Below are positions 1,209 through 38,656 of a stretch of 64,000 nucleotides of DNA, in pieces (the stretch's first letter is position 1; every line of letters begins with the position of its first letter). The DNA comes from Halobaculum sp. CBA1158 (lineage in GTDB: Archaea; Halobacteriota; Halobacteria; Halobacteriales; Haloferacaceae): NCBI RefSeq assembly GCF_021431925.1, contig NZ_CP090371.1, positions 2,356,001-2,420,000 of the forward strand. Direction: 5' to 3'. The position numbers were made by a program, and so were the translations under genes. The notes below the pieces were generated by a model, which did no database searches, was not told the origin of the DNA, and worked only from the letters and a program-made list of their open reading frames with translations.

Positions 1209-3809
<2,601 letters not shown>

Positions 3810-3873: not shown

Positions 3874-4866
3874 CTACACCACCCCGAACAGGAACCCGAC
3901 TCCCAGCGCGACGAGCACTATCGCCGACACCGTCGGGAAGTGCTCGGCGTAGCGCTCCATCCGCTCCTCGAAGCGTTCGTACCCCGCGACCAGCGCGAGC
4001 GTCAGCGCCGTTATAACGACGACGACTGTGCCCGCGTACGCGAGCATCAGTTCGAGACAGTGGTCGGAGCCCGCGCAGATAGCGATGATCTCGAACTCCT
4101 CCTCGTGGGCGAATCCCAGTACGAACGCCGACACGGCGATCCCGTACAGGCCGTCGTCGGCCGAGAGCTCGTGATCGTGGGTGTGGCCGTCGCCGTGAGA
4201 GTGACCATGAGAGTGGGAGTGACCGTGGGAATGGCTACCCTCGCCGTCGGTGCCGACGAACGGGATCGCGTTCCGAATCCGCCCGACGACGCTCGATCCG
4301 TCGGCGTCGTCCGCGTCGTCCGCGTGACCGTGGCCGGGATCGGTCCCCCGCGCGTCGACCGTCGCCGTCACGTCCACGCCGGCGTCCAGCCGCCCGGGTC
4401 CGTCCGCGTCGCCGACGGCGTCTGCGTCCGCGTTGGAGTGCTCGTGGCCGTCGTCGTCGGCGTCCCGGTGGTCGTGATCGTGCCCGTGTTCGTCGCCGGG
4501 ATCGCTTCCATGCGAGTGCCCGTGTCCGTCGCCGCGGTACTCGCGGATCCCGAGCAGGATCAGGAGGACGCCGGCGACGACGCCGATGGGCGAGCCGATC
4601 GCGACGCCGGCGACGGTCATCGGCTCGGAGAGCCCGTCGATGGGAACCTGCGTCTTCAGGAGAAAGAACGCGCCGACGACCGCGAGACTGGAGATCAGGT
4701 GGCCGATGCCGATGACGAGGCCGGCCGCGAGGCCGGCCAGCCAGGCGTTCGCGCGGTCGAACGCGTAGGCGGCGGCGATCGGCCAGCCGTGGCCCGGCTC
4801 GGCCCCGTGGAGCGCCCCGAGAGCGAGCGATCCCGCGAGCAGGCCGGGAGCGACGTCGTGAAGCAC
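3874..4866 (-). CDS. NicO/RcnA-family nickel/cobalt transporter with long His-rich loop
   Basis: From the GTG at 4866 the product is 330 residues. The first membrane segment carries the family signature HGAEPGHG (compare HGxEPGHG of NicO/RcnA proteins), and about six hydrophobic helices can be drawn. A central cytosolic loop of over 100 residues is packed with His and Asp, including two dense clusters (GHSHG...EHGHDHDH and SHSHGHSHSHGHSHG), which would bind Ni, Co or Zn. Family members either import or export Ni/Co; direction cannot be told here. The GTG was chosen because upstream codons run into the intergenic region, with a CATAAC box further out. It diverges from nikR, and a perfect palindrome lies just upstream, so nickel-dependent repression by NikR is likely. 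Confidence 0.85.
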   Translation of the reverse strand: MLHDVAPGLLAGSLALGALHGAEPGHGWPIAAAYAFDRANAWLAGLAAGLVIGIGHLISSLAVVGAFFLLKTQVPIDGLSEPMTVAGVAIGSPIGVVAGVLLILLGIREYRGDGHGHSHGSDPGDEHGHDHDHRDADDDGHEHSNADADAVGDADGPGRLDAGVDVTATVDARGTDPGHGHADDADDADGSSVVGRIRNAIPFVGTDGEGSHSHGHSHSHGHSHGDGHTHDHELSADDGLYGIAVSAFVLGFAHEEEFEIIAICAGSDHCLELMLAYAGTVVVVITALTLALVAGYERFEERMERYAEHFPTVSAIVLVALGVGFLFGVV

Positions 4867-4872
4867 GACCGA

Positions 4873-4891
4873 CGGTCGGCGACGCCGACCG
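4873..4891. promoter_or_regulatory. Perfect 9-1-9 palindrome, candidate NikR operator
   Basis: CGGTCGGCG and its exact reverse complement flank one base. It sits 7 bases upstream of the NicO transporter start. A minus-strand TATA-like GTCATAAC (4901-4908) would place the transcription start inside the palindrome, so a bound repressor would block initiation. NikR of bacteria binds palindromes of another sequence and wider spacing; assignment to NikR is inference from position. Confidence 0.5.
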
Positions 4892-4966
4892 AAAACGCCT
4901 GTTATGACCCGATCGGGGCGGCCGTAATACCGAAACGCCGAACCGCCGGGGGCGACGACTTCGGGT

Positions 4967-5365
4967 ATGCGAACGAGCCTGAACGTCCCCGACGACGCCC
5001 TCGCCGAGTTCGACGCCGTCGCCGAGGCCGAGGGGTTCGACTCCCGGTCGCGGGCGCTCCGCGAGGCGATGGCCGAGTACGTCGAACGCCACACGCGCCT
5101 GGAGGACGCAACCGGCGAGGTCGCCGCCGTCGTCGCGTTCGACTACGTTCACGACGAGGTGATCCGCGCCCTCCACGGCGTGCAACACGACTACCAGGAC
5201 GTGATCACGACCACCTCCCACGTCCACCAGGGCGAGTGGTGTCTGGAGACGGTGTTCTGTCGCGGCGACGCCGGGCGCGTCCGGGAGTTGGTGTACCGCC
5301 TGCGGGACTTCGACGCCGTCCGCCGGGTCCGGGTGCTGTCGCTCGTCGGCGGCGGCGACCGCTGA
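4967..5365 (+). CDS. nikR: Nickel-responsive regulator NikR
   Basis: The 132-residue protein has an N-terminal ribbon-helix-helix (residues 1-45, RTSLNVPDDALAEFD start) and a C-terminal ACT-like nickel-sensing domain. The high-affinity nickel ligands of the family are present: His74, His85, His87 and Cys92 (E. coli His76, His87, His89, Cys95). The loop between the last His and the Cys is one residue shorter than in E. coli (HVHQGEWC). NikR with nickel binds DNA and represses nickel uptake genes. Here its neighbour is the divergent NicO-type transporter rather than a nik ABC operon. The ATG is preceded by a GTAATAC box at about 4922. Confidence 0.93.
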   Translation: MRTSLNVPDDALAEFDAVAEAEGFDSRSRALREAMAEYVERHTRLEDATGEVAAVVAFDYVHDEVIRALHGVQHDYQDVITTTSHVHQGEWCLETVFCRGDAGRVRELVYRLRDFDAVRRVRVLSLVGGGDR

Positions 5366-31760: not shown

Positions 31761-32107
31761 CGGAACCATCGCACAACAGTTCTGACTCCCCGGCGCGGTT
31801 TCTCGCGGGAGTCCGGGTTCGACGACTGCCCGTCCGACCGCCGAGCGACGACGCCCGTCCGACCGCCGAGCGACGACGCCCGTCCGAGCCACGGGTGGGA
31901 CTGAAAGGGGCCGCGGCTGTGCGCGAAGGCGCGGACCGACAAGCACCGCAAGGCGAGCGAAGCGAGCCGAGGAGCGCAGCGGCCGCACCGAGCGCACAGC
32001 CGCGGGGGCTTTCGCGGTCGTCACCACGGTATCGCGGGCGGCGTCCCGAACCAGATCCATGCTACCGCGTGGCGAGATTTTATCAGCCGCGCCGGAATCA
32101 ACCGTGT
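31761..32107. repeat. Intergenic repeat region: 25-base tandem repeat plus inverted-repeat element
   Basis: No gene is visible. Two exact tandem copies of a 25-base unit (31831-31855 and 31856-31880, starting CGTCCGACCGCC) are followed by a partial third copy. Next comes GGGACTGAAAGGGGC (about 31898-31912), a short element I recall as frequent in haloarchaeal genomes, and a roughly 95-base segment bounded by a perfect inverted repeat (CCGCGGCTGTGCGC at 31911-31924 and its complement at 31992-32005). Between the arms lies a GCGAGCGAAGCGAGC-like sequence, also common in haloarchaeal intergenic repeats. The element could form a long stem-loop downstream of the aminotransferase gene. Confidence 0.55.
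32076..32084 (+). promoter_or_regulatory. TATA box of nitrile hydratase beta gene
   Basis: GATTTTATC ends 23 bases before the ATG at 32108, matching the leaderless pattern seen elsewhere in the window. Confidence 0.55.
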
Positions 32108-32812: not shown

Positions 32813-32893
32813 GCCGACGCGGCCGAGGCCCCGAACCGGTCGGTTTCGGGGGCGGGGCGAACGCATAAGCCCCCAGACGCGCCACTACATCAC

Positions 32894-34066
32894 ATGACCG
32901 GCGACCGCGGCGATCACGACGGACGCGACCACGACGACCCGCCGTCTCATCCCGACCCGGAACTCCGCGACGAGATCGGCCCGCAGGCGAGGGCGCGCGC
33001 GCTCCAGTCGCTGCTGACCGAGAAGGGCGTCCTCAGCACCGACGCCGTCGACGAGGTGATCGCCACCTACGAGGGCGACGTGGGGCCGATGAACGGCGCA
33101 CGGGTCGTCGCGCGGGCGTGGACGGACCCCGAGTACCGCGAGTGGCTGCTGGAGGACGGCATCGAGGCCGTCACGGAACTGGACATCTCGGTGAACGACG
33201 AGGTGATGGAGCTTCGGGTGGTCGAGAACACCGACGACACCCACAACGTCGTCGTCTGCACGCTCTGCTCGTGTTACCCGTGGGCCGTGCTGGGGCTGCC
33301 GCCGACGTGGTACAAGTCGCCCGCCTACCGCTCGCGCGTCGTCGACGAGCCGCGCGCGCTGCTGCGGGAGGAGTTCGACACGGATCTCGCGGACGGCGTG
33401 GACGTGGAGGTGTGGGACTCCAACTCCGAGGTGCGATACATGGTGCTCCCGCAGCGGCCCGACGGAGCCGAGGACATGAGCGAAGCCGAGCTGGCGGAGC
33501 TCGTCTCACGCAACGCGATGATCGGCGTCGAACGGCTCGGCGACGGGGGCTCGATCGCCTCCGACGGCGGCGCGCGGACGGCCGGCAGCGACGCGAACGC
33601 GACGGCCGGCAGCGACGCGACCGTCGATTCGACCGCTGAGGTCGACACAGCGGCCAAGCAGGTCCCGCGGACCGACGCCGACGGCCCGACGTTCGCGGAG
33701 CCGTGGATGGCGCGGTCGTTCGCGCTGGCGGTCGCGCTCACTAACGAAAACGACCCCGGGCACACGTGGGACGACTTCCAGTCGGAACTGGTCGCCGAAC
33801 TCGACGCGAACCCGGGCGCGGAGGACGGGAGCGACGCCGACTACTACGGCGCGTGGCTGGCCGCCCTCGAGCGCTTCCTGACCGAGCGCGACCTCGTCGA
33901 CGGGTCGGACTTCTCGGCCCGCGCGACCGCCTTCGCCGACGGCGACCGCAACGCCCACGAGTTCGTCGAGGGCGACCCCCACGCCCACGCCGACCAGTTG
34001 CCCGAGGGACACGCCGACGGCGCACATCACCACCGCGGTCACGACGACGACCACAGCCACCACTAA
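32894..34066 (+). CDS. nthA: Nitrile hydratase alpha subunit fused to accessory (activator) domain with His-rich tail
   Basis: A 390-residue protein. Residues about 20-215 are the alpha subunit with the metal claw VCTLCSCY (Cys122, Cys125, Ser126, Cys127); the Thr after the first Cys marks the cobalt type. Residues about 216-260 are a low-complexity linker (AGSDANATAGSDATV). Residues about 262-350 match nitrile hydratase accessory proteins (FAEPWMARSFALAVALT, WDDFQSELVAEL, YYGAWLAALERFL), which in bacteria are a separate gene needed for cobalt insertion. The last 35 residues hold about 13 His (HAHADQLPEGHADGAHHH, HDDDHSHH) and probably bind cobalt. Natural alpha subunits are about 200 residues, so this is a fusion. 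A GCATAAGC box lies 24 bases before the ATG, so it can be made separately from the beta gene. Confidence 0.88.
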   Translation: MTGDRGDHDGRDHDDPPSHPDPELRDEIGPQARARALQSLLTEKGVLSTDAVDEVIATYEGDVGPMNGARVVARAWTDPEYREWLLEDGIEAVTELDISVNDEVMELRVVENTDDTHNVVVCTLCSCYPWAVLGLPPTWYKSPAYRSRVVDEPRALLREEFDTDLADGVDVEVWDSNSEVRYMVLPQRPDGAEDMSEAELAELVSRNAMIGVERLGDGGSIASDGGARTAGSDANATAGSDATVDSTAEVDTAAKQVPRTDADGPTFAEPWMARSFALAVALTNENDPGHTWDDFQSELVAELDANPGAEDGSDADYYGAWLAALERFLTERDLVDGSDFSARATAFADGDRNAHEFVEGDPHAHADQLPEGHADGAHHHRGHDDDHSHH

Positions 34067-37662: not shown

Positions 37663-38313
37663 TCAGACCCGTCGCTCGCTGATCTCCTCGGCGACGCGCT
37701 CGCCCGGCCGCCGAAGCTCGCCGGACTCGACCTCGTACACGTAGCCGGAGACGGTCACGTCCTCCGGAATCAGCTCGTGTTCCTCGAGGTAGCGGACCTG
37801 CGCGGCGCAGGCCTCGTCGATATTGTCGGTCATGCGGACCCACTCCTCGACGGCGGCGTCGCCGATGTCGAGTTCGGGCAGCGCCGGATCGAGATCCACG
37901 TCGTCGAGGTCGACGCCCGCGGCCTCCGCCCGCGCCTCCAGGCCGGCGGCCACGTCGTCGTCGCTCGCGGACATCATCCCGCAGTCGGTGTGGTTCACGA
38001 CGACGATCTCGTCGGTGTCGAAGAAGTTCGTCGTCAGCGCCGCCGAGCGGATCACGTCGTCGGTGACCTTCCCGCCGGCGTTTCGGTAGATCTGCGCGTC
38101 GCCGAGGTCGAGGTCGAGGGCGTCCTCGACGGGGATGCGCTCGTCCATGCAGGCGACGACGAGGAGGTTCTCGTCGGTCGGGATCCCCTTGCGTCGGCGT
38201 CGCGCCCAGTCGTCGCGGGCGTCGACCGCCTCGTCGACCCGCTCGTGGACGTGGTCGTGTTCGTGCCCGTGCTCGTCGGTGCCGGTGTCGGTGTCGGCGT
38301 CGGTGTCGGACAT
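37663..38313 (-). CDS. Beta-class carbonic anhydrase with His-rich head
   Basis: A 216-residue protein. Zinc ligands are Cys55 (ACMDERI), His108 and Cys111 (NHTDCGM), with the Asp57/Arg59 dyad of beta-carbonic anhydrases and the loop NAGG. The first 30 residues are acidic and His-rich (DEHGHEHDHVHERVDE), unusual for this small archaeal subclass and possibly a metal reservoir. It interconverts CO2 and bicarbonate. The protein also has an insert of 35 acidic residues after the second Cys. ATG 38313 was chosen since the longer frame upstream has no such composition. Convergent or divergent partners give no further clue. Confidence 0.9.
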   Translation of the reverse strand: MSDTDADTDTGTDEHGHEHDHVHERVDEAVDARDDWARRRRKGIPTDENLLVVACMDERIPVEDALDLDLGDAQIYRNAGGKVTDDVIRSAALTTNFFDTDEIVVVNHTDCGMMSASDDDVAAGLEARAEAAGVDLDDVDLDPALPELDIGDAAVEEWVRMTDNIDEACAAQVRYLEEHELIPEDVTVSGYVYEVESGELRRPGERVAEEISERRV

Positions 38314-38443
38314 CGACGGATCACAGGGCCCGCAACGACGGGGTCGTTTCGCCGTCCGTAATCCCGACCGGTGATCGCAGAAAGGGGCGATTTGATCCGG
38401 TAGGGTCCGGAGTAACGCGGCGACCCGGGTTTGACGCGGGCGA

Positions 38444-38656
38444 CTACCCCTCGCCGGCGTCAACCTGCTCGTGAGTGTGGTGGTAGAACTCGACGAGGGC
38501 CTCGCCCCCGTCGCCGGCGACGGGTTCGAAACACACCCGACGGTAGCGCTCGTTGTCGAGGAGGTTCACCGCGAGTCCGGCGTCGTGCACCGAGACGGAG
38601 TCGTAGGCGACCCCGCAGGTCGGACACGACTCCGGCGGGTCGCTCGGGCGGTCCAC
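38444..38656 (-). CDS. 70-residue hypothetical protein with single Cys pair
   Basis: Starts MDRPSDPPESCPTCGVAYDSVSVHD; one CPTCG pair and a Cys near residue 42 (RRVCFEPV) suggest a partial zinc site. The rest has short beta-like strands (SVSVHDAGLAVNLL) and the tail EFYHHTHEQVDAGEG. Similar small haloarchaeal proteins exist but I cannot name the family. It stands alone between the carbonic anhydrase and macro-domain genes on the same strand, with gaps of 130 and 162 bases that show no other gene. Confidence 0.55.
   Translation of the reverse strand: MDRPSDPPESCPTCGVAYDSVSVHDAGLAVNLLDNERYRRVCFEPVAGDGGEALVEFYHHTHEQVDAGEG

Follow-up and report, generated by a model that had tools for sequence, protein, structure and literature searches.

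How does a nitrile hydratase of the cobalt type (Co-type) acquire its metal when the activator protein is part of the alpha subunit itself? The question is raised by one open reading frame in a 64,000-nucleotide stretch of the Halobaculum sp. CBA1158 genome (contig NZ_CP090371.1, positions 2,356,001 to 2,420,000; hereafter the window). A first-pass annotation of this DNA read the frame as an alpha subunit fused to its own activator and ending in a His-rich tail. Here the domains of the fusion, its distribution and its possible mode of action are examined.

Domains and integrity of the fusion gene

All the parts proposed for the single chain (alpha claw, linker, accessory domain and His-rich tail) are present in one open frame (Table 1), and Pfam and NCBIfam models recognise the alpha and accessory domains. 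Pfam NHase_alpha (PF02979) covers residues 31-212 (E 2.8e-80, 268.5 bits) and the curated alpha model TIGR01323 is passed with 270.7 bits (cut-off 249.85). Among solved chains, the alpha part is nearest to Co-type enzymes. In the claw C-T-L-C-S-C threonine is the mark of the Co-type, serine that of the Fe-type. The accessory domain was likewise correctly named as a nitrile hydratase activator: the NCBIfam model TIGR03889 (nitrile_acc) matches residues 267-339 with 64.8 bits (cut-off 46). Pfam NHase_beta_N covers residues 262-353, but the beta model gives the frame 30.5 bits, far under its threshold of 152.2. The pattern F..PW.AR.F and YY..WL.ALE, found throughout the family, is retained in the activator core. 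Judged by its sequence, the alpha domain is a Co-type nitrile hydratase alpha subunit, fused to a genuine Co-type activator domain.

Table 1. Features of the nitrile hydratase locus, in window positions.
Feature	Position	Strand	Evidence or remark
TATA-like box TTTTATC of the beta gene	32078..32084	+	~27 bases before ATG; conserved in Halobaculum-type loci
Nitrile hydratase beta subunit, separate gene, 234 aa	32108..32812	+	PF21006 and PF02211 over cut-off
TATA-like box GCATAAG of the alpha-activator gene	32863..32869	+	~27 bases before ATG
Alpha-activator fusion gene	32894..34066	+	390 aa plus stop, ATG start, one open frame
Nitrile hydratase alpha domain, residues 31-212	32984..33529	+	PF02979 and TIGR01323 over cut-off
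Metal claw VCTLCSCY, Co-type, residues 121-128	33254..33277	+	identical to solved Co-type chains
Linker, ~50 residues (217-265), Gly/Ser/Asp/Ala-rich	33542..33688	+	pLDDT <50, dN/dS 0.6
Activator (P14K/NhlE-type) domain, residues 266-358, homologous to beta N-terminal region	33689..33967	+	TIGR03889, fold, profile
His/Asp-rich C-terminal tail, 10 His	33968..34063	+	sequence

The activator is not a separate polypeptide at this locus, as it shares its open frame with alpha. In the sequence 32894-34066 in-frame ATG, GTG and TTG codons are all absent from the linker, so there is no obvious route to a free activator. A search of the whole genome (3.32 Mb, four contigs) found no second alpha gene and no second activator gene; its only matches resembling the beta N-terminal region are the beta gene and the fused domain. 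With one alpha/activator place in the genome and a linker free of start codons, the activator would exist only inside the fused chain, unless a later cut released it.

A joined frame of this kind can arise by error, since in several relatives the alpha and activator genes overlap by a few bases and a single indel would join them. However, an activator match is present in 8 of the 11 Halobaculum genomes, always within an uninterrupted frame of 413-455 aa, and two further MAGs have the same open frame, which makes ten Halobaculum-type loci in all. Halobaculum saliterrae and H. gomorrense are among the named relatives. The frame, linker included, is conserved and under selection. Among the ten copies dN/dS is lowest in alpha (~0.14), followed by the tail (~0.19) and the activator (~0.25), and highest in the linker (~0.60); on these sequence comparisons alpha, activator and tail are under purifying selection and the linker is relaxed. 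The same frame in independent genomes and the purifying selection on both domains rule out a frameshift or sequencing artefact, and the chance that an assembly or sequencing error joined two frames, which the first-pass annotation had named as a danger, is negligible.

In the AlphaFold2 model of the full chain two folded parts are predicted, and residues 217-266 (linker) and 352-390 (tail) are disordered. No docking of the activator domain on alpha is seen in this model, whose confidence is modest (mean pLDDT 65.7). Fold comparison places its alpha part with nitrile hydratase alpha chains (Z ~20); for residues 260-360 the match is to a Co-type beta chain, in its N-terminal region (Z 4.3). Predicted alone, the activator domain has a pLDDT of 76.8. 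Every one of its 25 best structural matches is a chain of nitrile hydratase or thiocyanate hydrolase, and with few exceptions they are N-terminal regions of nitrile hydratase beta, aligned over 75-90 residues at Z 5.8-7.7 and rmsd 3.5-4.7; the best unrelated fold reaches Z 4.0. A single-sequence search of the PDB with the domain gave no match and a profile was required, which matches Co-type beta at 1.5e-7. Since the domain is predicted to fold like the beta N-terminal region, it probably engages alpha at the beta-binding face, as was argued for P14K (PMC4709657).

The beta subunit itself is encoded by its own gene, which ends 81 bases upstream of the alpha ATG and matches the Pseudomonas putida Co-type beta chain at 4.8e-42. 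Its active-site arginines are in place: those of eldrfRyt and ghtRcpRy align with FRH and GHTRMPR of P. putida. The separate TATA-like box reported for each gene holds up, as both boxes are conserved among Halobaculum relatives and lie ~25-30 bases before the respective ATG. The alpha box (GCGAACGCCTAAGCC-type) is conserved in the ten Halobaculum-type loci and has a variant form in the unfused sister genus (L009 and L011), and the beta box (GAGATTTTATCA) stands before most Halobaculum beta genes. The order beta then alpha, by contrast, is not the oddity it was taken for: all haloarchaeal loci examined have it, and so does Rhodococcus rhodochrous J1 (PMC3323583). The neighbours of the locus are unrelated genes (lumazine synthase, aminotransferase, helicase). 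The genome encodes amidases and a CbtA-type cobalt importer; CbiM was not found in it, and its single NicO match is below the cut-off (window protein 3877-5094).

Distribution and origin of the fusion

In a class-wide haloarchaeal sample of 391 genomes, alpha was detected in 31 (32 places). The gene is fused in 16 of the 32 places and in the other 16 is followed directly by a separate activator, whose start mostly overlaps the alpha stop (ATGA or GTGA). The first-pass annotation had allowed that every haloarchaeal enzyme might be fused and that the fusion might already be described. Half of those in the sample are unfused, and no description of a natural alpha-activator fusion was found in the open-access literature.

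A tree was built from the alpha and activator columns of 34 haloarchaeal rows (18 fused, two MAG rows added) and 8 bacterial rows. The fusions sit in three clades: Halobaculum, a clade that spans several families (L004, L007, L010, L012, L015, L019, L021), and L030 alone. Supported branches force three changes of fusion state in haloarchaea. Placing the two large fusion clades in one clade was rejected (p-AU 4.5e-7), as was a clade of Halobaculum and L030 (p-AU 0.0068). The bacterial outgroups and the closest relatives of each fused clade are unfused; the change counts alone cannot separate gain from loss. The fusion probably came about when the alpha stop codon, which in unfused relatives overlaps the start of the activator, was lost. 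In the multi-family clade beta and alpha overlap (gap -4 or -8) instead of having a promoter each, and the two-promoter layout is therefore a trait of the Halobaculum lineage and not of the fusion. At the third fusion, L030 (L118, G130:C1:266000-271500), the beta gene is divided between two frames; it may be broken, or the sequence may contain an error.

Among bacteria, 398 genomes from the phylum of a Roseibium and 396 from the phylum of an Acidimicrobiales genome were surveyed. An activator over the TIGR03889 cut-off occurs in 50 of the 398 and in 15 of the 396. With the long-frame TIGR03889 matches inspected, no alpha-activator fusion was found in these ~800 genomes of two phyla: in all long-frame candidates activator and alpha lie in different frames. 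A one-piece plasmid match in Aminobacter was also rejected as a fusion, alpha and beta being separate genes there. In two Acidimicrobiales loci (L060, 1300-2271; L061, 928-1854) a frame of 309-324 aa begins with an activator-like domain. This frame is on the opposite strand and convergent with alpha, and represents a different type of extended activator. In L104-L110 (phylum of G392) beta is present as two short genes, for its N- and C-terminal halves, upstream of alpha. No activator was found near alpha in these loci, and the arrangement resembles the three-subunit enzyme of Streptomyces canus.

The His-rich tail and other His-rich arms

The last 35 residues of the fusion protein contain 10 His (P ~1e-10 against the 1.5% His background of seven neighbouring proteins). 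The tail reported in the first-pass annotation is thus real and enriched, although its count of about 13 His was too high. Its link to the fusion did not survive comparison with relatives. The same PHAHADxLPxGHADG tail, together with a His-rich run, closes the separate activators of L026 and of two loci of the unfused sister genus (L009, L011), so the tail is older than the fusion in the Halobaculum lineage and is rejected as a novelty of it. The fused multi-family clade, in turn, lacks the tail, and most of its alpha N-termini are His-rich instead.

A His-rich arm was scored in 83 archaeal and bacterial cassettes: it is found only at the alpha N-terminus in 39, only as an activator tail in 31, at both sites in 7 and at neither in 6. 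This either/or pattern is strong as a count (Fisher p 4e-10), but few independent changes lie behind it. On the tree there are 5 independent pairs on supported branches, with the tail opposite in about one, and correlated evolution is not established. As a lead, a His arm at either site of the same alpha-activator complex would fit one shared cobalt-collecting arm.

The tail could instead be a general metal buffer or solubility tail unrelated to the cobalt of the enzyme, which would be compatible with any role of the fusion. Other His-rich stretches do occur in the window (37666-38463 and 3877-5094). However, a His-rich arm on alpha or activator is present in nearly every Co-type cassette examined, in bacteria too, and the other two His-rich proteins of the window are metal proteins as well. 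A general role for the tail is rather doubtful. The protein at 37666-38463 (minus strand) is a beta-carbonic anhydrase (Pro_CA) with an Asp/His-rich N-terminal extension (TDEHGHEHDHVHERVDE), a nearby metal enzyme with a His-rich arm. The one at 3877-5094 (minus strand) is a membrane protein with long His-rich loops that matches NicO (Ni/Co transport) below the cut-off, and it adjoins a P-type ATPase with heavy-metal-binding motifs (1209-3809).

His-rich tails are also a feature of metallochaperones of the UreE/HypB type, which are maturation proteins. The resemblance is limited to the tail, as the domain is not homologous, and a UreE-type identity was rejected (UreE model 10.5 bits, cut-off 221).

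Known maturation systems and the tethered activator

Free activators form a complex with alpha and load it with cobalt, and the loaded alpha then swaps into the apo-enzyme; in fusions of alpha to beta, cobalt is also transferred directly (PMC4709657, PMC7193024). The alpha, beta and activator of Halobaculum belong to the same families as those of R. rhodochrous J1 (NhlBAE) and P. putida (P14K). In both of these bacteria the activator has its own gene, whereas in Halobaculum it forms the C-terminal part of the alpha chain and bears a His-rich tail. The J1 intermediate contains two activators per alpha (alpha-e2) and the Halobaculum fusion is 1:1, so the J1 mechanism cannot be copied unchanged.

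The closest man-made counterpart is the single beta-alpha-P14K chain NHase-(BAP14K) of Xia et al. 2016, which is active with a kcat above wild type (PMC4709657). Its P14K is at the C-terminal end of the alpha part, as in Halobaculum, but it has beta within the chain, while Halobaculum has a separate beta, a ~50-residue linker and the His-rich tail. Eukaryotic nitrile hydratases, for example that of Monosiga brevicollis, likewise combine a natural fusion with a His-rich stretch (PMC3323583). There beta is joined to alpha with the His between them and no activator domain is described, whereas in Halobaculum alpha is joined to the activator and beta is not part of the chain. In the AnhD/AnhE/AnhA enzyme of S. 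canus a beta-N-like subunit is the swapping and metal chaperone (PMC7329996); it is part of a split beta and not fused to alpha, unlike the chaperone domain of Halobaculum. Searches of the open-access literature for a haloarchaeal nitrile hydratase or a natural alpha-activator fusion found no description of either; the available text of one article notes nitrile hydratases in halophilic archaea without domain detail (PMC10098168). The natural fusions found in the open-access text are the beta-alpha ones of eukaryotes, and within that literature the alpha-activator fusion appears new, although its parts come from known families.

These comparisons make it fairly likely that the protein is a Co-type alpha subunit with a self-subunit-swapping chaperone (P14K/NhlE-type) tethered at its C-terminus, which would load cobalt before beta displaces the tether. 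Once the chain is made, its activator domain, which resembles the beta N-terminal region in build, would occupy the beta-binding face of alpha, acting on its own alpha in cis or between two chains. The His-rich tail would gather cobalt and hand it to the CTLCSC claw, whose cysteines would be oxidised following the transfer. The separate beta would then displace the activator domain, which may stay tethered or equally be cut off. The 1:1 ratio could be accommodated if two chains pair or if one activator is enough. The CbtA-type importer would support such a route with a means of cobalt import. To this extent we infer that the enzyme could be self-maturing and its tail cobalt-supplying, as the first-pass annotation suggested.

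The main rival to action in cis is that the fusion is only the form in which the protein is synthesised: a protease would cut the linker, the activator would work in trans, and the fusion would serve to fix a 1:1 dosage. The linker is indeed long, disordered and fast-evolving, in the unfused relatives the activator start at the alpha stop already points to coupled dosage, and known maturation employs a free activator (PMC7193024). However, the aligned linkers show no conserved cleavage motif and vary from 25 to 52 residues among the three fusion clades, and an engineered fusion is active (PMC4709657). Cleavage is unlikely, though it deserves more weight than a second idea, that the domain is vestigial as a chaperone and merely stabilises alpha, for instance in high salt. 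Engineered fusions are more thermostable (PMC4709657), which agrees with stabilisation, but the activator core is under purifying selection with its family-wide pattern retained, and the genome has no other activator gene that could replace it. A purely stabilising extension is very improbable.

A wider reading extends the tethered activator to the whole group. Haloarchaea may repeatedly have evolved an alpha with a permanent swapping chaperone, in which cobalt is loaded in cis and swapping between separate complexes has ceased to be necessary; in addition, Co-type cassettes would keep one His arm, on either partner, for shared cobalt collection. This remains a tentative proposal, a little short of an even chance.

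Co-type nitrile hydratase is an industrial catalyst, and whether it obtains its cobalt by subunit swapping or by direct transfer of the metal is a matter of dispute. The fused chain and the unfused sister enzymes with the same domains and tail form a natural pair for testing the need for swapping. A two-gene enzyme from a salt-loving organism, with no separate activator, may be of practical use. That fusions stand in three separate clades suggests either that tethering in cis works well or that it is readily reached where the genes overlap.
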